Source: an uncultured Moraxella sp. (GTDB lineage: Bacteria; Pseudomonadota; Gammaproteobacteria; Pseudomonadales; Moraxellaceae). From it: 64,000 bases of DNA. The notes under the pieces are model-generated. The model worked only from the letters and a program-made list of their open reading frames with translations. It did not search any database and was not told the origin of the DNA. Where the stretch lies: the NCBI RefSeq assembly GCF_945873075.1, contig NZ_CAMCBS010000009.1, forward strand, positions 16,730-80,729. Direction: 5' to 3'. Below are positions 3,670 to 17,152 of the stretch, piece after piece. Position numbers and translations under genes: made by a program. Position 1 is the first letter of the stretch. The number at the start of each line of letters is the position of its first letter.

Positions 3670-4028
3670 GGGGATGTTCTGGCTTCGACGCTGGTAATGA
3701 AACTCAATAGTGCATGTCAAGAGCGTGTGACTCTTGTAAATCAACATACATTTAAAATAGTCGCAAACGACGAAACTTACGCTCTAGCAGCCTAAGGGCA
3801 GCTTGGGACGGTGCAGATTGCCTTTGGTCTGGTCACTCTCCCCGAAGCGAACGCACAAAGGATAGCATCTGTTAGCGTTGCGATGATGGGTGCGAAACTT
3901 TTAGCAAATCGTCCAATCCATCCTGACTGTCGGTTCGGTGCGGATTAAAGCCATAGACAGATTCTAAACATGTAGAGCTATGGGCGTAGTGCTGGCGGAC
4001 GCGGGTTCAACTCCCGCCATCTCCACCA
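3670..4028 (+). ncRNA. ssrA: Transfer-messenger RNA (tmRNA)
   Basis: tmRNA rescues stalled ribosomes by acting first as alanyl-tRNA and then as a short mRNA that adds a degradation tag. The 5' end GGGGATGTTCTGGCTTCGAC and the 3' end GGTTCAACTCCCGCCATCTC followed by CACCA form the tRNA-like ends. The tag reading frame at 3763-3795 encodes ANDETYALAA followed by TAA, ending in the hydrophobic ALAA recognised by ClpXP-type proteases. The ~359-nt length is normal. The last 14 bases are also the attachment core of the following mobile element, and integration has kept the RNA gene intact while replacing everything downstream, including the terminator. Confidence 0.97.
4015..4028 (+). repeat. attL core of the ssrA-integrated element
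   Basis: CGCCATCTCCACCA, the 3' end of ssrA, recurs exactly at 14475-14488. The flanking bases differ on both sides, so the exact match is 14 bp. Confidence 0.9.
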
Positions 4029-4058
4029 TACATATAACCACACACCACCACACACGAT

Positions 4059-4097
4059 AAAAAACCCTAGATAAATCAAGCATCTAGGGTTTTTTTA
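4059..4097 (+). terminator. Element-supplied terminator for ssrA
   Basis: Stem AACCCTAGAT / ATCTAGGGTT with loop AAATCAAGC and a following run of T. It lies 30 bases after the ssrA CCA inside the element and replaces the native terminator now at 14496-14536. Confidence 0.85.
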
Positions 4098-4138
4098 TTG
4101 CCTTATATTGCCACCTATTACCCCCTATATTATAATCA

Positions 4139-4256
4139 TTTTTGTATCTCTATTTGTATCTCTTTATGTTCACAAAAATAGAGATACAAAACAGATTAGC
4201 CAAAACCCCAGTTTACTTTTCAGAGATACAAGTTAGCTAAATTGAGAGATACAAGA
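4139..4256. promoter_or_regulatory. Clustered TTTGTATCTCT repeats upstream of integrase (candidate arm-type or Xis sites)
   Basis: Two tandem copies of TTTGTATCTCT lie at 4141-4163. Three inverted relatives (AGAGATACAA type) follow near 4180, 4222 and 4246, the last touching the integrase start. The tandem pair is repeated exactly in the same orientation at the other end of the element (14389-14413), as arm-type integrase or excisionase sites often are. They could also mediate integrase autoregulation. Confidence 0.6.
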
Positions 4257-5492
4257 ATGAAAAGAACCGATATTAAAAAACGCCCCCTATCTGATACGGT
4301 TATTGCCAACCTAGAACCCGAAATGACAGAGTACAATGAAAAAGATAGCAAAGGTTTATATTTGTTCGTCAAACCCACTGGGGCGAAATCTTGGAAAATG
4401 CGTTATAAGGATAGTAAGGGCAAATGGCGTTGGACTGGGCTGGGTGCTTATCCTGCCGTTACTGGGGCAATGGCTAGAAAGCTGGTGCAAGAAAAATTAG
4501 TAGAATTGGCACTTGGTGCAGATGAATTGACCGCCAAGCCTGCACCGCCCACCGCCCAAACTTTTAAAAGTGTGGCTTTGGAATGGTACAATGAGCCCAA
4601 CATTCAAAAGCTGGATAATGGCACAAAATCCAAATATCTTAGCCTACTAGAAAAACACATATTCCCCACCATGGGCAAAAAAGCCATTAGCGATATATCA
4701 CGCCAAGTATGGCTTACCTTTTTTAAAAGGCTACAAGAAACGCCAAACCCCCAAACGGGCAAGCCCATCATAGAAACCGCAAACAGAGCTTTGCAGGTGT
4801 GTAGCCGTATTTATCGTTTTGCCCTTACCCATGAATTAGCAGGGGTACAGTCTAACCCTTTGGAACACTTGCACGAACGATTGGAAAAGCACGAACCCAA
4901 ACAGCTTGCCCATGTTAGCGAACAAGATTTACAAAAGCTATTATTGGATATTCAAACCATCCCCAGCGAAATCACACGCTTAGGGGTGCAATTGCTTAGC
5001 CATCTATTTTTACGCCCAAATGAAGTGTTGGATGGTGAATGGGCGGAAATTGATTTTGATAATGGCATTTGGGAAATCCCAGCGGAACGCATGAAAAAAC
5101 GACGCCCCCACCTTGTGCCACTATCCAAACAGGCACTTGCCCTATTACAGCAATTGCATAGCTTGACTGGCTTTGATACCCATCTATTCCCCAGCCGTGC
5201 CAAAGACCGTAAAAACGCCCACCAGCGTTTTAGAATGGCATTAAACCGCCTTGGCTATCTTGATGAACAAACCCTACACGGTTTCCGTCATATCGCTAGC
5301 ACCAAACTAAATAACTATACAGATGAAAACGGTATGAAATTTGATGGGCGTGTGATTGAGTTTGCATTAGCCCACAAGGTGCAAGGGGTGGCAGGCGTTT
5401 ATAACAAGGCGGAATATCTGCATGATAGAAAAATCATCAATCAATGGTATAGCGATTTTTTGGATAGCCTTGTACAAGCTAATGATGATTGA
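4257..5492 (+). CDS. P4-type tyrosine integrase
   Basis: A 411-residue site-specific recombinase, presumed to integrate and excise the element at the ssrA 3' end. The N-terminal DUF4102-type domain (LSDTVIANLEP, GLYLFVKPTGAKSW, GLGAYP) covers about residues 8-85. A SAM-like core-binding domain follows, and then the catalytic domain with Arg in the LRPNEV segment, HGFRH, a further His in LAHK, and the tyrosine nucleophile probably in GVYNKAEYL. ATG 4257 is chosen over the tracked upstream TTG because it matches the usual N-terminus and starts right after the repeat cluster. No downstream partner lies on this strand. Confidence 0.93.
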   Translation: MKRTDIKKRPLSDTVIANLEPEMTEYNEKDSKGLYLFVKPTGAKSWKMRYKDSKGKWRWTGLGAYPAVTGAMARKLVQEKLVELALGADELTAKPAPPTAQTFKSVALEWYNEPNIQKLDNGTKSKYLSLLEKHIFPTMGKKAISDISRQVWLTFFKRLQETPNPQTGKPIIETANRALQVCSRIYRFALTHELAGVQSNPLEHLHERLEKHEPKQLAHVSEQDLQKLLLDIQTIPSEITRLGVQLLSHLFLRPNEVLDGEWAEIDFDNGIWEIPAERMKKRRPHLVPLSKQALALLQQLHSLTGFDTHLFPSRAKDRKNAHQRFRMALNRLGYLDEQTLHGFRHIASTKLNNYTDENGMKFDGRVIEFALAHKVQGVAGVYNKAEYLHDRKIINQWYSDFLDSLVQANDD

Positions 5493-5731
5493 TTATAAAA
5501 AGTCATAGAATAGTCATAACATAGTCATAAAATGAATAAATCCGCCCATGATGCAACATAGGCGGATTGTTTTTGGGCTTATGCAGGCTAATAAATAATA
5601 ATATAAAATATATATAATATAGAATATCTTAATAATATTTCAGATATATATAATAAGGAAAGGGGAAATTAAAAAAGCATTTATCAAATAAAATAAATCG
5701 CCATAAATCCGCCATTTGGATGACAACCGCC

Positions 5732-5922
5732 CACGCCTGCCACAATGCCACCAATAGCATGATGGCTGGTGGTGCTGGCATAGTACTAGTTACTTGGTGA
5801 TGCCATTGCCCACACTGGTAGCGGTGGTGGCAATTGGTGGCAGTGATACCGCTGGCATGATATTGGCAGTTGCCCCCGTTGGTGGCATCATGGCAAGTTA
5901 TCCAGCCATTGCCCATTATTGG
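5732..5922 (+). repeat. Imperfect direct repeat, partner at 6285-6471
   Basis: Starts CACGCCTGCCACAATGCCAC and runs about 190 bp in parallel with 6285-6471 (offset about 553 at the left end), with scattered substitutions and small indels. It is the right half of the repeat unit without the GGGAAAA iterons. Confidence 0.75.
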
Positions 5923-6133
5923 CATTGGCGGTTATCCAGTGTTGGCATGGTGCTGGTGATTATCGCACCCGCCACATTTGGCAAGATACCAGCAACCGCC
6001 CACGCCTGCCAAGCCCAGCACCCAAAGGCAACCCCAGCAAACCTATCACCAGCAACCGCCCAGCCATTAAATTTAGCTTGTGTGCTCGGCGTGTCGGCAC
6101 ATAATCATATAAAGATATACCAGCACCACCCCA

Positions 6134-6324
6134 CCCACAACAACACAAAGTTATAAAAACTGGGAAAATGGGGAAAATGGGAAAATGACACCAGCAAAGC
6201 TATATATAGCAAGGCTTGCCCCGTTTTCCCCTATTTTAGGCAAATGGGAAAATGGGGGAAAATAAGGGGAAAATGGGTAGCTATCACGCCTGCCACAATG
6301 CCACCAATAGCATGATGGCTGGTG
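6134..6324 (+). repeat. Iteron-bearing repeat, copy A
   Basis: 191 bp matching 6593-6783 with about two substitutions, and matching in inverted orientation at 13571-13837. It contains six direct GGGAAAA words (three before and three after the centre), one inverted TTTTCCCC, and a perfect palindrome GCTATATATAGC at 6199-6210. The architecture looks like a replication origin or a protein-binding array. Confidence 0.85.
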
Positions 6325-6572
6325 GTGCTGGCAGTGCTGGTTACTTGGTGATGCCATTGCCTACACTGGTAGCGGTGCTGGCAATTGGTGGCGGTGATAC
6401 CGCTGGCATGATATTGGCAGTTGCCCACTGGTGGCATTAGGGCAAGTTATCCAGCCATTGCCCATTATTGGTAATGGCGGTCATTTTGACCGTCGTTATT
6501 ATACCGCTGGTTACTTGGTGATGGCTGGCGGTGCTGGTGATTGGTGGTGCTATCGCCTAAGCTGGTAGCATT

Positions 6573-6783
6573 GCTGGCTATCCAGTCATTAACCCACAAC
6601 AACACAAAGTTATAAAAACTGGGAAAATGGGGAAAATGGGAAAATGACACCAGCAAAGCTATATATAGCAAGGCTTGCCCCGTTTTCCCCTATTTTAGGC
6701 AAATGGGAAAATGGGGGAAAATAAGGGGAAAATGGGTAGCTATCACGCCTGCTACAATGCCACCAATGGCATGATGGCTGGTG
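6573..6783 (+). repeat. Iteron-bearing repeat, copy B
   Basis: Nearly identical to copy A over 6593-6783. On its left it extends with GCTGGCTATCCAGTCATTAA, which is shared with the inverted copy C but not with copy A. Confidence 0.85.
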
Positions 6784-6834
6784 TTTGGCTTGCTTGGTGA
6801 TGGCTGGTGGTGCTGGTGGTAGGCTATGCCAAAG

Positions 6835-6865
6835 AAAAAAGCCCCTGCAATGCAAAGGCTTTTTG
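6835..6865 (-). terminator. Terminator of the replication gene cluster
   Basis: On the minus strand, AAAGCCTTTGC pairs with GCAGGGGCTTT (including G-U pairs) and is followed by a T-run. It lies just after the DUF3987 gene stop. Confidence 0.7.
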
Positions 6866-6875
6866 GGCGGTAGGC

Positions 6876-8954
6876 TTAGGCGGTCAATAACTTTGGGTTA
6901 ATCTCAATAAATCTACAATCATCTTGATAGGCTAGGCGGATATGCTGTTTTTCTAGCAAATAATCTATCGCCAATTCAAAAACCGCCTTTTGTCTAAGTA
7001 CTTTTGGGCTAATGGTGCTTTGTACTTCTGAATAACCAAAGCTTGCTGTATTTCGCATCTTGGCACGCTTAACAAGCCATTCTATCAATAGTTCTGCATC
7101 CCCTTTGTTGCCATCTGTAATATCACAATATTTCAAGCGTTCTGCAATGGAAAAATCCACCAGCTTACTAGCATTGATGATATGTTCTTTGCTTACTGCC
7201 TTTTCGCCTTGGAATAATGCCAGCAGGCAAGCGATACGGGCGGTATTTTCGCCCATACGCCCAGCAAATGCAGGGATTTGGGCGTATGGTTCGCCAGTGC
7301 GTTGCTTGGTTTCTACATCCTGCATATAATCCGCCAAGGCTTGCTTTGCACTTTGGTCTTTAAATGGCATATTTACACGCTCTATAGGTTTATCAATCAG
7401 TAAATCCCTACATTTTTTATAATACTTGGTCAAATGCCAATCTTGGCTAGGGCTAGCGTTCATGCGGTCGGGCGTGTTGTATTGTCTGTACCCTTGGAAA
7501 CTCTTTGGGCAAGCCAATAACGCCCTAGGCAAAAAGCCTTGATTGATTAATACGGGGTCTGTCATGGCAGGTTCTAATATCACCCGTTGCCCCATAACAT
7601 CCAGCGTTAGGCGTGCATCATAGGCATTTGTTCTATCTTGCCCAGTTTTACCCCTTTGACTTCTAATTTTACTGACTGGGCTACCATCCCAAAGCTTGGT
7701 TAAGCTTGAAATGCTACTACCAGCGGTATCAGATTTCATGCTATACCCATTAAAAAATTGCCCAGCTTCATCCGTATTCCAATAAACATCCTTTTGTTCA
7801 TCCAAAATAAACTTATCCGTAACCGCCTCTATCGTGCCATCTGATACCATGTAAGTGTAGCTTTTTGGCTTTGGGTTGTTCGCTTTTTCTTTTGGTGGCT
7901 GGCGTTCCCATTCATTGAGTACTGCCAAATAGTTTAAATAGTTTTCTTTTTCCCATTCTGCCAATTCATGGTTAGCCAATTTGGTTGCCTGTGATTTGCC
8001 TTGACCGCTGGGAAATTCGGTGATTAAAAACAAGCTGGCAGGGATATGGGTGTTTAAAAATGGGGCGTTTGCCATACGCTGACCAATGGCAGATAACACG
8101 CCCAGCACACTTTGCCCAGCTACCGCCAAAGGGACTTGTGCATAATAGGCGATTTGTGTGATTACATCCGCCAATTCACTGCCAAAGCTATCAAGCGGAT
8201 AATCATTTTCTTTGTGGTACTTGTCATCCAGTGGTAACGGTTCGCCCCATGGTTCATCCTGTTTTGGTACAGGCGTGGCGGTTGCTGGCTGGTTGTTTGG
8301 TGCTGTTTTGGCGGTGCTGGTAGCGTGTAAAAGCTGTTGCAAGCGGTCATTATCCAGCATTGGCAAAGCCTGTAATTTGGCGTGCATGGTGGCAATGTCG
8401 CACCCTTGCATATAATCGACAATATCGCCTTTTTCTACCAAGCCCAGCTTATCTACATCTACAATACGGATTGTGGGCGGTGGTGATAGTGCTTGCAAGG
8501 CTTGAATAAAGGTATCCAGCCATGAAATGCCAGCGGTATCATTATCACGCCATAATACACATTCTTTACCTGCCAAGGGCTGTAAATCATGGGCGGTAAT
8601 GGTATTGCTACCGCCTGTTGTGGTGGCGATATAGCCCAAATTGTCCATTAAATCCGCTTTTTGTTCACCTTCAAAAATCCATACGGATTGTGATTGGCTA
8701 AGCTTATGCAGGTAATACAAGGGTTTTTGGTTGGGCGTAAAGACTGGTTCGCCCATTTTCCACTGATTATCCACACCAAAAAAGAATGGGCGGATATGTT
8801 TTTTGCCTTGAGCGTTTTTTAGGCGTGCTTTGGCGTAAATCGTGTTCCCCTGTGCATCGGTGTACTGGTGAATGGTGATGGCATCATAGCCTTGATTTAT
8901 CAGTTTGCCAAATAAACCTTTGGCAATGGGGGTTAATTCGTTTGGATTGTACAT
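6876..8954 (-). CDS. TOPRIM/DUF3987 replication protein (primase-helicase-like)
   Basis: A 692-residue protein likely to replicate the element. The N-terminal ~200 residues resemble a TOPRIM-like primase domain (VWIFEGEQKADLMDNLGY near residue 92, then VLWRDNDTAG with the acidic DND). The middle and C-terminal part resembles the DUF3987 family of mobile-element P-loop proteins, with a Walker A-type FPSGQGKS near residue 317. The zinc-binding part of a primase is missing here but is encoded by the gene immediately upstream (9019-9603), so the primase seems split in two. The C-terminal ~60 residues look like a winged-helix DNA-binding region. DUF3987 is a recognition by eye. Confidence 0.8.
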   Translation of the reverse strand: MYNPNELTPIAKGLFGKLINQGYDAITIHQYTDAQGNTIYAKARLKNAQGKKHIRPFFFGVDNQWKMGEPVFTPNQKPLYYLHKLSQSQSVWIFEGEQKADLMDNLGYIATTTGGSNTITAHDLQPLAGKECVLWRDNDTAGISWLDTFIQALQALSPPPTIRIVDVDKLGLVEKGDIVDYMQGCDIATMHAKLQALPMLDNDRLQQLLHATSTAKTAPNNQPATATPVPKQDEPWGEPLPLDDKYHKENDYPLDSFGSELADVITQIAYYAQVPLAVAGQSVLGVLSAIGQRMANAPFLNTHIPASLFLITEFPSGQGKSQATKLANHELAEWEKENYLNYLAVLNEWERQPPKEKANNPKPKSYTYMVSDGTIEAVTDKFILDEQKDVYWNTDEAGQFFNGYSMKSDTAGSSISSLTKLWDGSPVSKIRSQRGKTGQDRTNAYDARLTLDVMGQRVILEPAMTDPVLINQGFLPRALLACPKSFQGYRQYNTPDRMNASPSQDWHLTKYYKKCRDLLIDKPIERVNMPFKDQSAKQALADYMQDVETKQRTGEPYAQIPAFAGRMGENTARIACLLALFQGEKAVSKEHIINASKLVDFSIAERLKYCDITDGNKGDAELLIEWLVKRAKMRNTASFGYSEVQSTISPKVLRQKAVFELAIDYLLEKQHIRLAYQDDCRFIEINPKLLTA

Positions 8955-9018
8955 TTGTTGTTATTCCTAGTCATTCATCATCATAAATAAAGGGGTTGTT
9001 TGGCTGGTGCTGGCGTGA

Positions 9019-9603
9019 TTAGCGGTATAAATCCAAGTCTTTGCACGCCTGCACAAAATCCACCCCAAAGCGTGCCATATAAAAACCCACCATATCGCCA
9101 CTAGCACCGCATACATGGCAGATATAGCCCCCATGGTCTGTATTGATAGATAAGCTGGGGTGTTTATCACCGTGAAATGGGCAAAGTGCAGAACGCCACA
9201 CGCCACCGCCTTTAAGCGTTAGCCCATAAGTATGATAAAAATCTATCGGGCTTGGCAGGCGTGATAAATCCGCTCTTTGGCGTTGTTTTTGCTGGGGCTT
9301 GGCTTTGTGCTGGCGGTTTGCTTGGCTGGGTGCTTGGCGTGGCGGTTGCTGATTGCTACCCATGCCAAAGCTTGCCTTGTTTGCCCCTGTATTTGCCCCA
9401 TTTTGGGCGGTTTTTTGGGGGTTTTGGGTGTGGCTGGTGGTTTTGCCTTGCCATGTCATCCTGTGGGCGTGGCGTGGCTGATGGTGCGTGTGGCGGTAGT
9501 GGTGTGCTGGGTGGCGTTTGCCAATACCGCCCGTTGTACGCTTGGCAAATGGGGCGGATTGCCCCATTGCTGGATTGGTGGTGGCGTTAGTGTCTGTTGT
9601 CAT
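9019..9603 (-). CDS. CHC2 zinc-finger primase fragment with low-complexity N-terminus
   Basis: A 194-residue protein whose last ~80 residues are a CHC2-type zinc finger as in DnaG-like primases (ALCPFHGDKHPSLSI followed by YICHVCGASGDMVGFYM), providing the Cys-His-Cys-Cys ligands for template recognition. The first ~110 residues are rich in His, Gln, Asn and Ala and look disordered. Its ATG overlaps the stop of the upstream gene (ATGA), and the DUF3987 gene follows after 64 bases, so the two halves are probably made together. The 79-residue ORF in another frame here is a shadow. Confidence 0.82.
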   Translation of the reverse strand: MTTDTNATTNPAMGQSAPFAKRTTGGIGKRHPAHHYRHTHHQPRHAHRMTWQGKTTSHTQNPQKTAQNGANTGANKASFGMGSNQQPPRQAPSQANRQHKAKPQQKQRQRADLSRLPSPIDFYHTYGLTLKGGGVWRSALCPFHGDKHPSLSINTDHGGYICHVCGASGDMVGFYMARFGVDFVQACKDLDLYR

Positions 9604-10004
9604 GATTGCCCCTTATGGCTTGTGATAAGTGATATTGCTTGCTTTGCGACAATCTCACGGCTTAGCGTTTCGCAAAAGTCCTTGTAATGGCGTGTGCCTT
9701 TTAGGTGTTCATTTAGGCTTTGTGCATCACCAAACGCCAAATCCGCCAAATATTCGCCCTTGTTTATCACGCTTAGGGCTAGGGCAAATTTTTGTTTGGG
9801 TTCAAGCTGGGCGGAAATGTTGCCATCTGCCAGCACCTTGACCAGCTCTATCATGTTTTCCAATCCACCGCTAAGAAATAGCAAAAAACCCACCATATCC
9901 GCAAAATCGCACGCATTTATTTCAATGGTTGTAGGCGATTGCGATAATGCGTTAATTTCGGTGATACTGCTGGTGGTGTGGATGGTATGTTGTGTACTTT
10001 TCAT
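9600..10004 (-). CDS. Unknown element protein (134 aa)
   Basis: Not recognised. ATG 10004 is chosen over the tracked 10025 because AGGA lies just upstream of it. The protein is acidic to neutral, with a hydrophobic helix-like segment (FADMVGFLLFLSGGLENMIELV) that could be a buried helix rather than a membrane span. Its stop overlaps the start of the CHC2 primase gene, suggesting translational coupling and a role in the replication module. Confidence 0.65.
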   Translation of the reverse strand: MKSTQHTIHTTSSITEINALSQSPTTIEINACDFADMVGFLLFLSGGLENMIELVKVLADGNISAQLEPKQKFALALSVINKGEYLADLAFGDAQSLNEHLKGTRHYKDFCETLSREIVAKQAISLITSHKGQS

Positions 10005-10113
10005 AAATAATCCTAATTTGTTCATTCAATGCTGTTATACAAAAGCCAAATTTTGGGTAATAAAGCCCTAAGCGGTGCTATTCTTGGAATAAACCGCCTA
10101 ATTTGGCGTATGC

Positions 10114-10419
10114 TTAGTGTGGCACTTGCTCAATGCTAATGGGTGTTGCTGGATAGTCTTTGGCGATAAGTTCCGCCATGCTGACGGCTTGGCGTTGGCT
10201 ATCAAAAAGCCGTTTAATGCCAAGCTTTGGGGCGGTTAAGATATAGCCAGCTTGTTTGCTAGGGTTTAGGCTTTTAACTAGGCGGGTGATTTTTGATAAT
10301 CTGATATCCGCCTTTGGATTAGCCTGTTGTAGCTGGTAATACCGCTTGATGGCATCATATTCTTGGCTAAACACTTGCAAAATATCCAATTCTTTGCAGT
10401 AAATTTGAAAATGCACCAT
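10114..10419 (-). CDS. Unknown element protein (101 aa)
   Basis: Not recognised. It is small, basic and mostly helical, with a charged N-terminal half (EYDAIKRYYQLQQANPKADI) and no Cys or metal motif. It starts one base after the stop of the preceding ORF (10421), so it is probably translated by coupling. A 109-base gap separates it from the 134-aa gene downstream. Confidence 0.6.
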   Translation of the reverse strand: MVHFQIYCKELDILQVFSQEYDAIKRYYQLQQANPKADIRLSKITRLVKSLNPSKQAGYILTAPKLGIKRLFDSQRQAVSMAELIAKDYPATPISIEQVPH

Positions 10420-10420
10420 C

Positions 10421-10564
10421 TTATACCCCCATAACCGCTAAAATAGCGACAACAAGGCAAGCAATAGGCAAGCCAAGCACAAAGCCCAAAACAAGGCTTT
10501 CTACTGGGGTAAAAATGGAAAATTTTTGAATGGTGGTTGAAATGGTATGGGTGATTGCATTCAT
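10421..10564 (-). CDS. Small single-span membrane protein (47 aa), internal start
   Basis: This is the C-terminal part of the longer Ash-like frame, but ATG 10564 is preceded by AGGAG at good spacing, so it may be the main translated product. It has a short polar N-terminus (MNAITHTISTTIQKF) and one strong hydrophobic segment (LVLGFVLGLPIACLVVAILAV), giving a probable inner-membrane microprotein. The function is unknown. Confidence 0.55.
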   Translation of the reverse strand: MNAITHTISTTIQKFSIFTPVESLVLGFVLGLPIACLVVAILAVMGV

Positions 10565-10906
10565 GGCGAACGCTCCTATGTGTTTAGTTAGTGTTGCCAC
10601 CCATAATAAAGGGTGGCGGGGCTGAACTACCGCACATAAACGGCTGGGGCTATTTCCTAAAAAAGGTATTGTATTTACCCCCATCACCCCGCCATAACTG
10701 GTGATACTGTATGTATCTTGTAATGACGGAATATTTACGCTTGTGGGGCTGTTATCGCTAACAGTAGGCGTAAAAATAGCCAATGAATGACGGCTTGGCA
10801 ATGCCGTTATGTGTTTAGTAGTGGCGTTATTATCGCTATGCCAAGCAAAAAATTCAAGCGATTTTTGCAAATATTGCGATAATTGCGAAAAAATAGTAAA
10901 TTGCAT
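10421..10906 (-). CDS. Ash-like ORF (161 aa) of P4-type satellites
   Basis: The segment SYGGVMGVNTIPFLGNSPS followed by QPRHP resembles, from memory, the Ash/Icd-like ORFs found between the regulator and replication genes of P4-like elements. In those elements this region can act largely through RNA (leader and antisense immunity RNA), so the ORF may be partly or wholly non-coding. A hairpin (CCACCC / GGGTGG, about 10597-10616) lies inside it, upstream of the internal start at 10564. The family assignment needs a profile search. Confidence 0.45.
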   Translation of the reverse strand: MQFTIFSQLSQYLQKSLEFFAWHSDNNATTKHITALPSRHSLAIFTPTVSDNSPTSVNIPSLQDTYSITSYGGVMGVNTIPFLGNSPSRLCAVVQPRHPLLWVATLTKHIGAFAMNAITHTISTTIQKFSIFTPVESLVLGFVLGLPIACLVVAILAVMGV

Positions 10907-10937
10907 GATATAATTACCTTGTTGTTTTTCATCATCA

Positions 10938-10966
10938 CCCCTTGCCTAGTGTAAGGGGCTTTTTTA
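10938..10966 (+). terminator. Plus-strand terminator-like hairpin upstream of the Ash-like ORF
   Basis: CCCCTT, loop GCCTAGTGT, AAGGGG, then CTTTTTT. The T-run is on the plus strand, opposite to all nearby genes. It would end a transcript antisense to the Ash-like region, or act as a leader hairpin on the minus strand. Confidence 0.55.
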
Positions 10967-11080
10967 TTGGCGGTTGCGGTGATAAGTGTGCATTAGGGCG
11001 GTTTTTGTGCGTTTTTTTACCCTGTTGCAGGCGTGGGCGGTGCTTTGTACCAGTTCACGCCTGCACCGCTTAAACTCGCA

Positions 11081-11305
11081 CTAAAAGGCAGTGGGATAGC
11101 CATGTTTGACGCACATATTGCGACAATAAATTACCACTCCCACAAATGATAATTCTGCTTTTTCGCCATGGCGTATTAGCTTATTCAAGTAGGCGTTTTG
11201 GTTTAGGCGTCTGCCTTGGCGGTTGTAGGGTTCTACTTGCCACATGGTTTGTCGGTGGGTTTTGGCTTGTGGCGATAAAGTGGATTGTTGGTTTGAGTTT
11301 GTCAT
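11081..11305 (-). CDS. Unknown element protein (74 aa)
   Basis: Not recognised. It is basic and rich in Gln, Asn and Arg, with two Cys residues near the C-terminus (YCRNMCVKHG). It follows the winged-helix-like gene after 9 bases and probably shares a transcript with it and alpA. Downstream, 174 bases lack genes and contain the plus-strand hairpin. Confidence 0.55.
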   Translation of the reverse strand: MTNSNQQSTLSPQAKTHRQTMWQVEPYNRQGRRLNQNAYLNKLIRHGEKAELSFVGVVIYCRNMCVKHGYPTAF

Positions 11306-11314
11306 GATTAATCC

Positions 11315-11635
11315 TTATTGGTCATTGGTTGGATTGGTGGAATGGCTGGTATCCCATGGGCGGTTAGGGCTGTTTTGATGCCGTTTGATATAGTCCGCAT
11401 CTAGGTAGTAGCGTTTTAGGCGTTTGCCATTGCTGGTAAAGAAATAATCGCCATGAATAGGTACGCCGTAAATGCGTCTAAGTTCGCCCAGTCGCTGGGT
11501 AGTGCATAGACACCCAAACAACTGCACACCATCAAGGGCGGTTAGGCTGTTGCCCTTGAGTAGATACTCAAACATGCGCTTGGTGGTATCTGATAATGAT
11601 TTTTTGTGCTTTTGGGTCAATGGTGCTTGTTTCAT
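11315..11635 (-). CDS. Small helix-turn-helix-like protein (106 aa)
   Basis: Probable DNA-binding protein. The central part (KRMFEYLLKGNSLTALDGVQ followed by TTQRLGELRRIYGVPI) fits the winged-helix fold common in phage and island proteins: a helix, a turn near LTALDGVQL, a recognition helix TTQRLGEL, then a wing (HGDYFFTSNGKRLKRYYL). Its ATG overlaps the alpA stop (ATGA), so the two are coupled. A regulatory or replication-accessory role is inferred from position. Confidence 0.65.
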   Translation of the reverse strand: MKQAPLTQKHKKSLSDTTKRMFEYLLKGNSLTALDGVQLFGCLCTTQRLGELRRIYGVPIHGDYFFTSNGKRLKRYYLDADYIKRHQNSPNRPWDTSHSTNPTNDQ

Positions 11636-11832
11636 GCGTTTTCCCCTTGTGCTTTGTGCCAGTCAATCAATGCTTGATAGTCAAAATAAACAGATGATTG
11701 CATTTTGTTACCCGTTTTGTAGGGTCTAGGAAATGTTGGGTCATTCTCTACCAGCGTTCTAAGCTTTTCACGCCCAATTGCCAGTAGTTCGCACGCTTGT
11801 TTTTTGGTTACTCTGATAGGTTTTAAGGTCAT
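11632..11832 (-). CDS. AlpA-family transcriptional regulator
   Basis: A 66-residue protein with an excisionase-like winged helix: KKQACELLAIGREKLRTLV is the helix-turn-helix, then DPTFPRPYKTGNKMQSSVYF is the wing. AlpA proteins in P4-like elements activate or repress integrase and island genes and can serve as excision factors. No other excisionase candidate is seen, so it is the best candidate for Xis function here. It is the first gene after a strong terminator, so it should have its own promoter in 11833-11910. Confidence 0.85.
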   Translation of the reverse strand: MTLKPIRVTKKQACELLAIGREKLRTLVENDPTFPRPYKTGNKMQSSVYFDYQALIDWHKAQGENA

Positions 11833-11910
11833 ATTTCCCCCATTTGGTGATATTGGTTAAAGTCATGCCATGCTTGGCTGTGTGGGGATATGATAAAAAA
11901 TGAAAAGCAT

Positions 11911-11950
11911 AAAAAACCCTAGTTAGGATTTTGTTCATCCTAACTAGGGT
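11911..11950 (-). terminator. Strong terminator after the coiled-coil gene
   Basis: Perfect 14-bp stem ACCCTAGTTAGGAT / ATCCTAACTAGGGT, followed on the minus strand by a run of T. It separates the 11970-12698 gene from alpA. Confidence 0.85.
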
Positions 11951-11969
11951 TCATGGCGTGGCAGGGTAG

Positions 11970-12698
11970 TTACTTGCTCATTTCGTGGGCTATCTTTAAC
12001 CATGTGGCAACGGTGTCATCACTAAGGGTATTGCCTTGTAATTCCATGTTGGTGCGTATTTTTCTATTTGCTTCACCGTATGGCTGGGTTATATCCAATC
12101 CTAGCAATTCAACGGCTAAGGCTGAAATAATTTTACCTGCATTGTTTGCGGTTCTTGTAGGCAACTCTTTATCATTCGAATTAGTGGCAGGCTTGGCGGT
12201 TGCTTGTAACTGGTCAATTTGGGTTTGTAGTTCGTTAATTTTCTGCTCTTTTTGGTTTAGCTGGTCTTTTAGGCGGGCTATTTCATCATTTTTTTCTTGC
12301 AACTCATTTGATGATTTTGGGCGGTATTCAATGGCGGTTAATGGCTTTTCTGACAAACCAAACGCCATTTCCATTACAGTAATAAGACGGTTTTTTAGCT
12401 CATTATTTTCATTTTTTAAGTCTTTTATTTCGTTTTTTAGTTCTTTTTTGCTTTTGCCCGTGTTGCTAGGCGATTGTGCGGGTCGGGTTTCGCCTGTTTC
12501 ATGGTCAATTACAACGGGGGTAGGTTTGGCAGGAATAGCGTTTTCGCCAAATGGGTTTGCAAATGCTTTGGCTATACGCCCCAAATGTTCAATTTGTTCA
12601 AACATAGGGGCGGCAAGGCTCTCTAACCGCTCTTGAGATGCACGCAATCCTTGCATAAGATTGGTTAAGGGGGGTTTCTTGTTTGGGTTATCACTCAT
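11970..12698 (-). CDS. Coiled-coil protein of the element (242 aa)
   Basis: Function unknown. ATG 12698 (AGGTG upstream) is preferred to the tracked GTG three codons earlier. The middle region is a long charged coiled coil in two blocks, KKELKNEIKDLKNENNELKN and ELQEKNDEIARLKDQLNQKE, up to about residue 165. The C-terminal ~55 residues (KIISALAVELLGLDI, then ELQGNTLSDDTVATWLKIA) resemble a small domain seen at the C-terminus of many phage and plasmid accessory proteins, possibly DNA-binding. It is monocistronic with its own terminator. Confidence 0.7.
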   Translation of the reverse strand: MSDNPNKKPPLTNLMQGLRASQERLESLAAPMFEQIEHLGRIAKAFANPFGENAIPAKPTPVVIDHETGETRPAQSPSNTGKSKKELKNEIKDLKNENNELKNRLITVMEMAFGLSEKPLTAIEYRPKSSNELQEKNDEIARLKDQLNQKEQKINELQTQIDQLQATAKPATNSNDKELPTRTANNAGKIISALAVELLGLDITQPYGEANRKIRTNMELQGNTLSDDTVATWLKIAHEMSK

Positions 12699-12801
12699 AT
12701 TCCACACCTAACCACACCAAATATTTATAGGGTGCATGGCGTTGGCGTTATGGTGTGGATGGTAACGCCGTTCGGTAGCTACTCCTAGCCATGCAAAAAG
12801 G

Positions 12802-13266
12802 TTAAATTTGGCTAACTGGATAAACCAGCCTTAAGGGATTGGACACTAAACGAATAAAACCCAACTTGGCGTAATATTCTGCCAGCGTTTCGGTCTTGGC
12901 ATCTATCGCCACAAATGCCACGCCTGCCATTGTGCTAATACTTTTGGCTTGGTGCATGGCATGGCTAATTAGCTGATTGGCTAAGCCTTTGCCCTGCTCA
13001 CCGATTGCCACCCCCAAACGCCCAATCAATACCGCTGGTATCTGCTTGGGATAGCCTTTGATAGCTCCTTGGGTGTTATCTAGGCTTATGGCTGATAATG
13101 TATAAAATGCTTGTATGGTTACCCCGTCTGTCAAGGCGTGGACTTGTGCAATGCCCTTTTTGCAGTGCTGACTTGCTAGGTGTTGTAAATAGTGGTTAAT
13201 ACTGGCATTGCCACAATCAAAGCTTTGTTTGTCGTGCTGTTTGTTTAATGGCTGTATCTTAAGCAT
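12802..13266 (-). CDS. GNAT-family toxin (TacT/AtaT-like acetyltransferase)
   Basis: A 154-residue N-acetyltransferase likely to be the toxin of a type II pair. Toxins of this family acetylate aminoacyl-tRNA and stop translation. Visible features: N-terminal FDCGNASINHYLQHLASQ typical of these toxins, central VLIGRLGVAIGEQGKGLANQL (acetyl-CoA loop), and C-terminal EYYAKLGF with the conserved Tyr. The start overlaps the antitoxin stop by 8 bases; the tracked upstream ATG four codons earlier is less likely. The loop reads EQGKGLA instead of the more usual RGKGLG, so activity is not certain. Confidence 0.85.
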   Translation of the reverse strand: MLKIQPLNKQHDKQSFDCGNASINHYLQHLASQHCKKGIAQVHALTDGVTIQAFYTLSAISLDNTQGAIKGYPKQIPAVLIGRLGVAIGEQGKGLANQLISHAMHQAKSISTMAGVAFVAIDAKTETLAEYYAKLGFIRLVSNPLRLVYPVSQI

Positions 13267-13504
13267 GATTAGCCCCATGCAATGCTAATAACTCACGCAT
13301 GGCAGGGCTTGGCGGTGGTGGATTATCCAATAGTTCTTGTAATAACGCCCCATCTTGTACCCCAATGACAAAGCTTGTCGGGTCTGCATCTAACTGGGGT
13401 TCATCAAAAAAGGTGCGTTGTAACAACTCTGCCACGCTAACCCCTTGGGCTTGTGCCTTGGCGGTGATGGCTTGTTCTATTTGTGGTGGTAAGTCAATTA
13501 TCAT
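13259..13504 (-). CDS. RHH-like antitoxin of the GNAT toxin
   Basis: An 81-residue protein; ATG 13504 has AAGGAC upstream, while the tracked ORF starts 27 codons earlier without support. The N-terminus (MIIDLPPQIEQAITAKAQAQ, then SVAELLQRTF) fits a ribbon-helix-helix DNA-binding domain. The C-terminal half is acidic and proline-rich (NPPPPSPAMRELL), suited to wrapping the toxin. The overlap with the toxin start indicates coupling, and autorepression of the pair is expected from the family. Confidence 0.75.
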   Translation of the reverse strand: MIIDLPPQIEQAITAKAQAQGVSVAELLQRTFFDEPQLDADPTSFVIGVQDGALLQELLDNPPPPSPAMRELLALHGANHA

Positions 13505-13570
13505 AGGCTTGTCCTTATTGTGTTTTTTTTGGATTGTGTTTGTGGGTATTATATCATAGTTATTGCCATA

Positions 13571-13857
13571 TATCACCGCCACCAATTGCCAGCACCGCTA
13601 CCAGTGTAGGCAATGGCATCACCAAGTAACCAGCACTGCCAGCACCACCAGCCATCATGCTATTGGTGGCATTGTGGCAGGCGTGATAGCTACCCATTTT
13701 CCCCTTATTTTCCCCCATTTTCCCATTTGCCTAAAATAGGGGAAAACGGGGCAAGCCTTGCTATATATAGCTTTGCTGGTGTCATTTTCCCATTTTCCCC
13801 ATTTTCCCAGTTTTTTATAACTTTGTGTTGTTGTGGGTTAATGACTGGATAGCCAGC
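13571..13857 (-). repeat. Iteron-bearing repeat, copy C (inverted)
   Basis: The reverse complement matches copy A (6134-6399) almost base for base with a one-base indel in an A/T run. On the other side it continues with the extra ~20 bp found only in copy B, so it spans the full unit. It lies 66 bases upstream of the antitoxin start and may also carry the promoter of the toxin-antitoxin pair. Confidence 0.85.
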
Positions 13858-14388
13858 ACCATGCCAGCGGTATCAATACGCCTTATCCATCCCACCTAGT
13901 ATTACATAGACCAGCCGACACAGCCAAGCAAAGCTTAACAGGGTTAAAATAAGCAATTGTGTTATAAGATGCACATTAACCGCCAAGCCCTGCCATACTT
14001 GCTATAAAATCATGTTTGCTTGGTGGGATGGCTGGGGGGTGGTGAAAAAGTTTCAGACAGCACCCCCAGCGGACACCACGCCCCATCCCGTGCATAAAAA
14101 AATTTCCATTTTCCGAAATTTTTTCCGCTTTTCTCCAAAGATACCCCAAACAGGCGGAAATTATTGTATAAATCCCATCCCCATGATAAGATTGGTAATA
14201 CATGGGATAAATTAGGCGGAAAAACATTCAGACCGCCAAAGCCTATAGGGGTGGTTTCAAAGTGAAATTGTCTATCGCTAGAAACCCAGACCCGCAATAT
14301 TTTTTTCACACGGTCAAAACCCCATAGGGGGTATATCCGTTACAAAACTAGGATTTTTTGGGGCAATTGCCAAATCATAGCACCTTGT
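13858..14388. other. Non-coding right end of the element
   Basis: About 530 bases without a convincing gene. On the minus strand there is an inverted repeat GGCGG...CCGCC (about 14211-14243), and an AT-rich stretch with AAATTTCC and GGAAATT words lies near 14098-14125. The 99-aa minus ORF here has no start signal or family. A structured regulatory RNA is possible, by analogy to P4 immunity RNA, but not shown. Confidence 0.45.
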
Positions 14389-14413
14389 TTTTTGTATCTC
14401 TATTTGTATCTCT
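14389..14413 (+). repeat. Right-end copy of the TTTGTATCTCT tandem repeat
   Basis: A 25-bp exact direct repeat of 4139-4163, 62 bases inside attR. Candidate arm-type recombination site. Confidence 0.75.
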
Positions 14414-14474
14414 ACTAGGTACATTTTTTGATAACTGTTTATAAATCAATAAGTTATGATATTTGTTCAAGTAA

Positions 14475-14488
14475 CGCCATCTCCACCA
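14475..14488 (+). repeat. attR core
   Basis: CGCCATCTCCACCA, identical to the ssrA 3' end. The rest of ssrA is absent here. Confidence 0.9.
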
Positions 14489-15874: not shown

Positions 15875-17152
15875 TTAAGATGATTTTGCCAAAGTTAGGT
15901 TAGTGGATTTGTTTTTGTAAGCTTGCTGCACTTTTACACCCACACCATATACCACTACTGAAGTTACGATGCCTACAATCGGCGCAAACCAAGGACTAAA
16001 ATACGCCACTGCTGAACCGATCACATAAGCCGTCAAGCCAAGGTAATTGAAATTTGGTAATTTAGTCCACAGTTCAGGATATTGTCCACGATGCTTAATC
16101 CAAAAGTCTGCCATAATCACCCCGCCAATCGGTGGCATAAAAGTGCCAAGCAATACCAAAAATGGAATCAACATTTCATACATACCGCCAACTGCCAATA
16201 CAATACCCACAATCGCCGCCGCAAAAGTCATCAGCTTATGGCGATCTGAACGCACCAGATGGCATGCAGCTGCCGAGACATTGTAAATCGTTGGTCCTTG
16301 AATAGTGGCAAGGTTTAGGCATAACATTACAACTGCCGCAATGGATAAACCTTGCAAAATCAGCACTTCCACAATATCCGCCTGCTGATAAGCAATCGCC
16401 ATCCAAGCACCTGCTAGCACCATCGCACCATTACCCACCACAAAACTTACCAAGCATACCCAAATGGCAGTTTTGCCATTTTTGGCAGTGCGAGTCCAGT
16501 TGGTGATTTGAGTTGCACCCGATGCAAAAGTACCAAAAACAATGGTCAGCGCTTGAGCGACTGTTAGCTTATCCGTTGGCATGGCAGCAAACAGCCCATC
16601 AAAACCGCCCACATCTTTGGTGGCAGTCACAATTGACCATACCAAAATCACACTCATCACAGGGATGGATAATTTGGCAAGCATAGCAAGCCCTTTTGAA
16701 CCAACAATAGCCGTCACTGCAAACGCCAAGCCAAAAGCAATCATCAGCGGTATGGTCAGAGATTCGGACAAATCAAGCAGCTTTACCAATGAAATAGCAA
16801 TCGTCGCCGTACCCCACGCATACCAACCAAGCTCAGCAAAACCAAGCACCATATCAGACAGCTTTGAGCCAATATTACCAAAGCAAAACCGCCCCATCAG
16901 CACTGTATTTAGACCACTTTTGGCAGAAATATAACCCAAAGTTGCCGCATAACTAGCAAGTAAAAAATTACCCAATATTGCAATCCACAGGATATCAATA
17001 AAATCAAAAGCCACACCGATTTTACTGCCTGCAAACATCGTACCTGTAAAAAAAGTAAACCCAAAAATAACCAAAGTAATGGGCAAAAATCCCTTTCGAT
17101 GAGATTCAGGTGTTTTTTCAAGCCAACTTTCATCATGTTCAACTGCTGACAT
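15875..17152 (-). CDS. codB: Cytosine permease (NCS1 family)
   Basis: A 425-residue inner-membrane transporter that imports cytosine by cation symport, feeding the CodA deaminase encoded next. About twelve hydrophobic segments can be seen, with the NCS1-like N-terminal part (GFTFFTGTMFAGSKIGVAFDF) and glycine-rich helix breaks (GRFCFGNIGSKLSDM). It is the first gene of codBA; the leader lies in the AT-rich gap before 17494. Length matches the family (about 420). Confidence 0.9.
   Translation of the reverse strand: MSAVEHDESWLEKTPESHRKGFLPITLVIFGFTFFTGTMFAGSKIGVAFDFIDILWIAILGNFLLASYAATLGYISAKSGLNTVLMGRFCFGNIGSKLSDMVLGFAELGWYAWGTATIAISLVKLLDLSESLTIPLMIAFGLAFAVTAIVGSKGLAMLAKLSIPVMSVILVWSIVTATKDVGGFDGLFAAMPTDKLTVAQALTIVFGTFASGATQITNWTRTAKNGKTAIWVCLVSFVVGNGAMVLAGAWMAIAYQQADIVEVLILQGLSIAAVVMLCLNLATIQGPTIYNVSAAACHLVRSDRHKLMTFAAAIVGIVLAVGGMYEMLIPFLVLLGTFMPPIGGVIMADFWIKHRGQYPELWTKLPNFNYLGLTAYVIGSAVAYFSPWFAPIVGIVTSVVVYGVGVKVQQAYKNKSTNLTLAKSS

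Follow-up and report, generated by a model that had tools for sequence, protein, structure and literature searches.

The locus described here lies in a 64,000-nucleotide (nt) stretch of a contig from an uncultured Moraxella sp. (the window; NZ_CAMCBS010000009.1, positions 16,730 to 80,729). It is part of an integrated element bounded by two copies of CGCCATCTCCACCA, the last 14 bases of the tmRNA, which set the length of the element at ~10.5 kb. On the minus strand, a frame of 161 amino acids (aa; 10906-10421) consists of a leader and, from an internal ATG (10564) preceded by AGGAG (10577-10573), a 47-aa protein with a single extended hydrophobic segment; both signals are present as described by the original prediction, an earlier reading of the letters and their open reading frames (ORFs). 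The CCACCC/GGGTGG hairpin that it placed upstream of the ATG is there as well (10617-10611 / 10602-10596), and belongs to a larger fold that is conserved, that of the RNA family sRNA-Xcc1 (RF02221), of which it makes up the 3' edge. The stop codon of the microprotein lies one base ahead of the start of a 101-aa ORF (TAAGATG), and the minus-strand genes of the element also include a 141-aa ORF, a CHC2 primase protein and a DUF3987 primase/helicase. The decisive feature, which the original prediction overlooked, is a 12-nt direct repeat complementary to the loop of the RNA: ACTAAACACATA occurs on the minus strand at 10819-10808 and 10588-10577, its only copies in the window. The features are collected in Table 1.

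Table 1. Features of the locus and of the element that carries it (positions in the window)
Feature	Position	Strand	Basis or remarks
Integrated element	4015-14488		14-bp repeat of tmRNA 3' end at 4015-4028 and 14475-14488; integrase, primase and helicase genes
101-aa ORF	10114-10419	-	Start one base past microprotein stop (TAAGATG); coupling predicted from sequence
47-aa single-span membrane microprotein, putative first controlled gene	10421-10564	-	Codon-position differences; separate frame in L016
Leader part of 161-aa frame	10565-10906	-	Probably translated without amino-acid constraint; 0 stops against 8.5 expected, 55 synonymous changes against 56.1 expected
Downstream target copy ACTAACTAAACACATAGGAG (seqC-like)	10573-10592	-	Predicted duplex -15.3 kcal/mol; own-flank match across 66 loci; ends in AGGAG 10577-10573
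GCCACCC/GGGTGGC hairpin	10596-10617	-	GCCACCC 10617-10611, GGGTGGC 10602-10596; between RNA and downstream target; sequence and fold
sRNA-Xcc1-type (RF02221) putative antisense/immunity RNA	10607-10693	-	P1 arms 10693-10687 and 10621-10615; P3 loop UUUAUGUG 10640-10633
Upstream target copy ACTACTAAACACATAACGGC (seqA-like)	10803-10822	-	Complementary to P3 loop and following joining region, predicted duplex -23.0 kcal/mol; loop-to-own-flank matching over the 66 loci
Terminator-like hairpin with T run	10938-10966	+	Hairpin 10938-10958, then T tail; hairpin and A run kept in L099

The RF02221 covariance model matched the minus strand at 10693-10607 over its full length (52.8 bits, E 2.4e-8; gathering cut-off 53). 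Run at the gathering threshold, Rfam reports nothing at the locus, and the match appears when an E-value threshold is used; relatives with the same scaffold score 55–56 bits. The window RNA has the P1-P2-P3 fold, the conserved AAUACAAuACC and the CCACCC 3' end, and across 17 relatives the three-stem fold is kept while 10 pairs of the consensus fold are altered on both sides. A model built from 56 sequence-aligned RNAs lost the base pairs and was dropped. The original prediction had proposed a covariance search for a C4/CI-type RNA, and this found RF02221 rather than C4 itself: C4 (RF01695) reached 22.3 bits at the same place and strand, below its gathering cut-off of 45 bits. An identity with c4-2 (RF02944) was ruled out, as the genome holds no match to it at E up to 10. 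In Rfam, sRNA-Xcc1 has no clan and is not classed with C4. Within the genus, 11 of the 22 genomes surveyed carry an RF02221 match above the cut-off.

In each copy of the repeat, CACATA(A) forms the complement of the P3 loop UUUAUGUG. The downstream copy leads straight into the AGGAG (CACATAGGAG), 8 nt ahead of the microprotein ATG. This is the layout of C4/CI-type RNAs: two target copies on the same strand flank the RNA and are complementary to its variable loop, and the downstream one overlaps the ribosome-binding site of the first gene that would be controlled. We also observed that ~120 nt around the upstream target (10872-10752) are 100% identical in a viral contig, L099, with the remaining locus ~90% identical; this may reflect strong constraint or recent recombination.

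On either side of the RNA, the loop fits the flank of its own locus much better than the flanks of other loci. The genus, family and class together yielded 68 RF02221 loci, with 66 distinct RNAs, and for each of these we measured how long an exact complement the P3 segment has in its own flank (80 nt on the downstream side), taking the longest; the null was obtained by permuting RNAs among the flanks of other loci 20,000 times. This statistic was chosen after the sites had been seen, replacing an unrestricted duplex-energy ranking that was too noisy (own downstream site first in 3 of 68), which gives weight to the controls and to the separate tests by taxon. The own-flank complement averaged 6.65 nt downstream and 7.03 nt upstream, values reached by none of the permutations (maxima 5.39 and 6.27, respectively). 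The signal was present within the genus (z 11.6 downstream, 8.7 upstream), outside it (z 9.8 and 6.7) and among 13 loci sharing one joining region (z 6.9 and 6.4); outside the genus, a second block after P3 likewise matches the flanks (z 5.7 and 8.6). Controls gave z 0.3 for P2 against the downstream flank and z -0.6 for P3 against +120-200, and a weak signal (z 2.3) for P2 against the upstream flank. At many loci the downstream site terminates in the AG of GGAG, abutting the Shine-Dalgarno sequence of the start site. In near-identical copies the loop and both flanks change in step: for example, one has the loop TCTTTTCG and two copies of CGAAAAG, another TCTATTGT and two copies of ACAATAG. 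Single genomes can hold different addresses. Four RNA units with four addresses stand in tandem at L015 (G010:C1:1555691-1558996), in one 452-codon open frame with a microprotein copy at its end; three of the four have clear matches on both sides. Elsewhere a C4 RNA (RF01695) directly adjoins an sRNA-Xcc1 RNA on the same strand (G019:C3:2123-2489; G004:C1:831966-832333 and 845122-845791), as if two immunity RNAs had been stacked.

The microprotein is supported as a real, separate coding unit under normal coding selection. Differences over its last 30 codons are distributed 46/24/66 by codon position (4 copies), and those between the window and its close relative L099 2/3/9. At L016 the leader frame ends at TAATG and the microprotein follows in a different frame; at L034 the overlap is ATGA. 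Among 199 genomes of the family there are four detectable copies including that of the window, all in its genus and all preceded by a matching triad of loop and two targets, and L099 holds a fifth, near-identical one. The cargo of other relatives includes regulators or antirepressors (P22_AR_N, KilA-N, AntA, Rha, Bro-N), the SymE toxin and small orphans; in the phage record Mcat14 (KR093638) the triad lies upstream of an ORF called Bro-N-like by its resemblance to L036. We found sRNA-Xcc1 copies upstream of SymE-like genes at L066 (Pfam-confirmed), L068, L083, L084 and L093. At the last four of these, the loop matches the symE ribosome-binding site over 7–9 nt, which could account for the symE cassettes described in the literature.

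The closest parallel is found in P4 (X51522), where a C4-type RNA (74.9 bits, 8507-8420, minus strand) lies within the 137-aa 'cI' frame, which matches Phage_ASH (PF10554) at 4.3e-16. There, copies of TTCACAGG lie on the upstream side at 8651 and on the downstream side at 8384, in the latter case as TTCACAGGAGG ahead of the internal ATG of a 65-aa frame, which we take to be kil. Both loci place the RNA between two targets on the same strand (seqA-CI-seqC in P4) inside an Ash-type frame, start a small protein within that frame from an AGGAG-ATG at the downstream target and have replication genes further downstream (alpha in P4). They differ in that the P4 RNA belongs to the C4 family and that of the window to the sRNA-Xcc1 type, and in that the cargo of the window is an unrelated membrane microprotein and its 161-aa frame lacks PF10554. 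P4 immunity acts by transcription termination, whereas for the window RNA a block of translation is predicted. The CI RNA of P4 pairs with seqA and seqC (PMC4825925). The C4 RNA of P1/P7 is likewise a three-stem RNA with two recognition blocks, in the loop and the joining region, one of which occludes a ribosome-binding site (PMC5320573, PMC12197685); the window RNA differs in falling below the C4 cut-off and in having no antirepressor as cargo, though many of its sRNA-Xcc1 relatives do.

Taken as a whole, the evidence makes it likely that a P4-like integrated element has its immunity region at this locus, which would encode a leader-derived, self-silencing immunity RNA directed against the microprotein and the replication operon. 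The minus-strand leader transcript would contain the RNA, whose P3 loop would serve as a 7–8-nt address complementary to two targets in the same transcript, one ~110 nt ahead of the RNA and the other at the ribosome-binding site of the first gene. Cut from the leader, the RNA would block translation of the microprotein. Expression of the replication operon would also be blocked, either by polarity or by coupling at TAAGATG, through which repression should reach the next gene. A resident copy would in this way silence both itself and any incoming element bearing the same address, and translation of the stop-free leader would serve to let ribosomes reach the transcript, couple to it or protect it, rather than to make its peptide. 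This reading draws on the RF02221 match, the compensatory pairs, the own-flank matches, the microprotein triads, the plan shared with P4, the cargo of relatives and the element context.

Several points weigh against it. While the RNA fold, the complementarity, the covariation, the coding status and the element context are supported directly by the letters, expression, processing and repression (and likewise immunity and leader translation) are what we infer from them. The RF02221 score falls slightly below the cut-off, and the downstream match in the window comprises 6 nt in the loop and a short second block. Some distant loci (e.g. L073, L078, L087, L091 and L092) have no clear downstream match. 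The plus-strand terminator-like hairpin is left unexplained, and to our knowledge there is no helper phage or exclusion phenotype.

The strongest competitor, which we nevertheless regard as rather unlikely, is a type I toxin-antitoxin system in which the RNA is the antitoxin to a toxic membrane microprotein and stabilises the element instead of acting as an immunity factor. The cargo is small and hydrophobic here and is the SymE toxin in some relatives, and the molecular mechanism would be identical; however, other loci often carry an antirepressor, and two targets with a replication operon downstream fit control of the P4 type better.

A separate plus-strand antisense RNA ending at the 10938-10966 terminator is improbable. 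The original prediction was right that a terminator hairpin (10938-10958 plus T tail) stands there with no plus-strand gene, and L099 keeps the hairpin and an intact T run although both arms have changed; yet a consensus scan of 10050-10938 found no plus-strand promoter-like site, and the conserved RNA and its covarying targets sit on the minus strand. A plus-strand RNA was rejected as the principal explanation on these grounds. The suggestion of an antisense or immunity RNA holds in that a C4/CI-like RNA is encoded (RF02221, with the P4 Ash/cI layout), but not in its placement: the RNA lies on the minus strand, as in P4. Terminator-like sites are in mild excess in the 2-kb region (6, against 3.3 +/- 1.9 in shuffles), and similar GCCCCTnA..TnAGGGGC hairpins occur ahead of the leader at L033, L035 and L042.

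More doubtful still is a functional, Ash-like 161-aa protein with an incidental internal ATG. The frame does look used. Its ribosome-binding site and ATG, AAGGTAATTATATCATG (10920-10904), are identical in L099 and similar in L038 and L055, and the leader frame is free of stops in all 10 copies compared where 8.5 new stops were expected (P about 1e-4), with 4–13 stops per copy in the other two frames; the copies are related, some being tandem paralogs, and changes were counted from the consensus. The leader between the targets nevertheless shows no sign of amino-acid selection, since its 213 distinct substitutions are spread evenly over codon positions (77/72/64) and include 55 synonymous changes against 56.1 expected. 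The 161-aa frame matched no Pfam family at E up to 1, and so not Phage_ASH, and no PHROG; an Ash-family protein was rejected on the Pfam result and the lack of a synonymous excess. A search of the genome contigs with this frame gave no matches. In addition, the microprotein of L016 is out of frame with its leader, and the cargo varies between copies. The original prediction had asked whether translation starts at 10906 with codon-level conservation in relatives, and had supposed that the microprotein might be the only product. The start site is kept and the frame open, with no selection on amino acids, and the microprotein is indeed a separate unit, probably not the only stretch translated. 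In satellite-like elements the leader would be translated for passage or coupling, its sequence being set by the RNA and the targets; at loci of the genus with antirepressor-type cargo we saw no open leader frame.

Least likely is regulation of host genes in trans by the RNA, with secondary flanking matches, as in the published virulence-associated reading of sRNA-Xcc1 with its predicted targets and HrpG/HrpX control (PMC2996969, PMC12189769), given that from locus to locus the loop changes together with the ribosome-binding site of the adjacent gene, and that one genome holds different addresses.

Of the traits of a P4-like satellite, integrase and replication genes are both found in the element. 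The integrase gene (4242-5492) adjoins the tmRNA gene, whose tag in the window is ANDETYALAA, and a small ORF resembling a helix-turn-helix protein, with weak matches throughout, lies on the minus strand at 11632-11832. The window DNA, used as query against phages and plasmids, gave no matches; Moraxella phage Mcat14 was matched at 86% by an RNA region taken from the same genus group. Translated stretches that are nearly identical (e.g. MGENKGKMGSYHACHNATNSMMAGG) occur at 5629-6855 and 13560-13852, on the two sides of the element and in opposite orientation; this is repeated DNA and probably non-coding. At 12802-13585, a GNAT acetyltransferase with a small ORF directly upstream resembles a toxin-antitoxin pair of the TacA/TacT type; the small ORF has no Pfam match.

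sRNA-Xcc1, the best Rfam match of the window RNA, was discovered in Xanthomonas campestris, where it measures 88 nt and its targets were predicted only (PMC2996969). In contrast to our reading it was published as trans-acting and virulence-linked, without a proven target. Later papers tie it to virulence regulators and report five clustered copies in a Xylella island (PMC12189769), or connect it with symE cassettes and propose 'a divergent regulatory mechanism' (PMC12444791). The portions of this literature surveyed contained no link to C4, proven target or flanking targets; a 2011 sRNA-Xcc1 paper outside the survey could hold a target link. The Group 1 sRNAs of Acinetobacter baumannii offer a parallel, since the chromosome carries numerous C4-type copies whose target loop varies and which seem to be cut from longer transcripts; they differ in belonging to the C4 family, and their authors favoured host targets (PMC5320573).

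Own-flank matching of the address at most of the 66 loci suggests how the sRNA-Xcc1 family may work. We lean modestly towards the view that the entire family serves mobile elements as an address-coded means of self-silencing and immunity. The 7–8-nt address would be held in triplicate (loop, upstream target, ribosome-binding site), concerted change would create new immunity groups, units could be stacked in tandem, and satellite-like leader frames would stay open for ribosomes with the Ash-like peptide irrelevant. The point has wider interest: members of this Rfam family are annotated in a large number of proteobacteria, and sRNA-Xcc1 has been discussed in connection with virulence. Should pairing underlie the covariation, the target of each copy would be readable from the adjacent sequence, and SymE genes, phage antirepressors and satellite operons would come under one control device. 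The results also suggest that some annotated Ash/Icd-like 'proteins' may be leader frames overlying an immunity RNA, and would provide a sequence rule with which to predict mutually exclusive elements.
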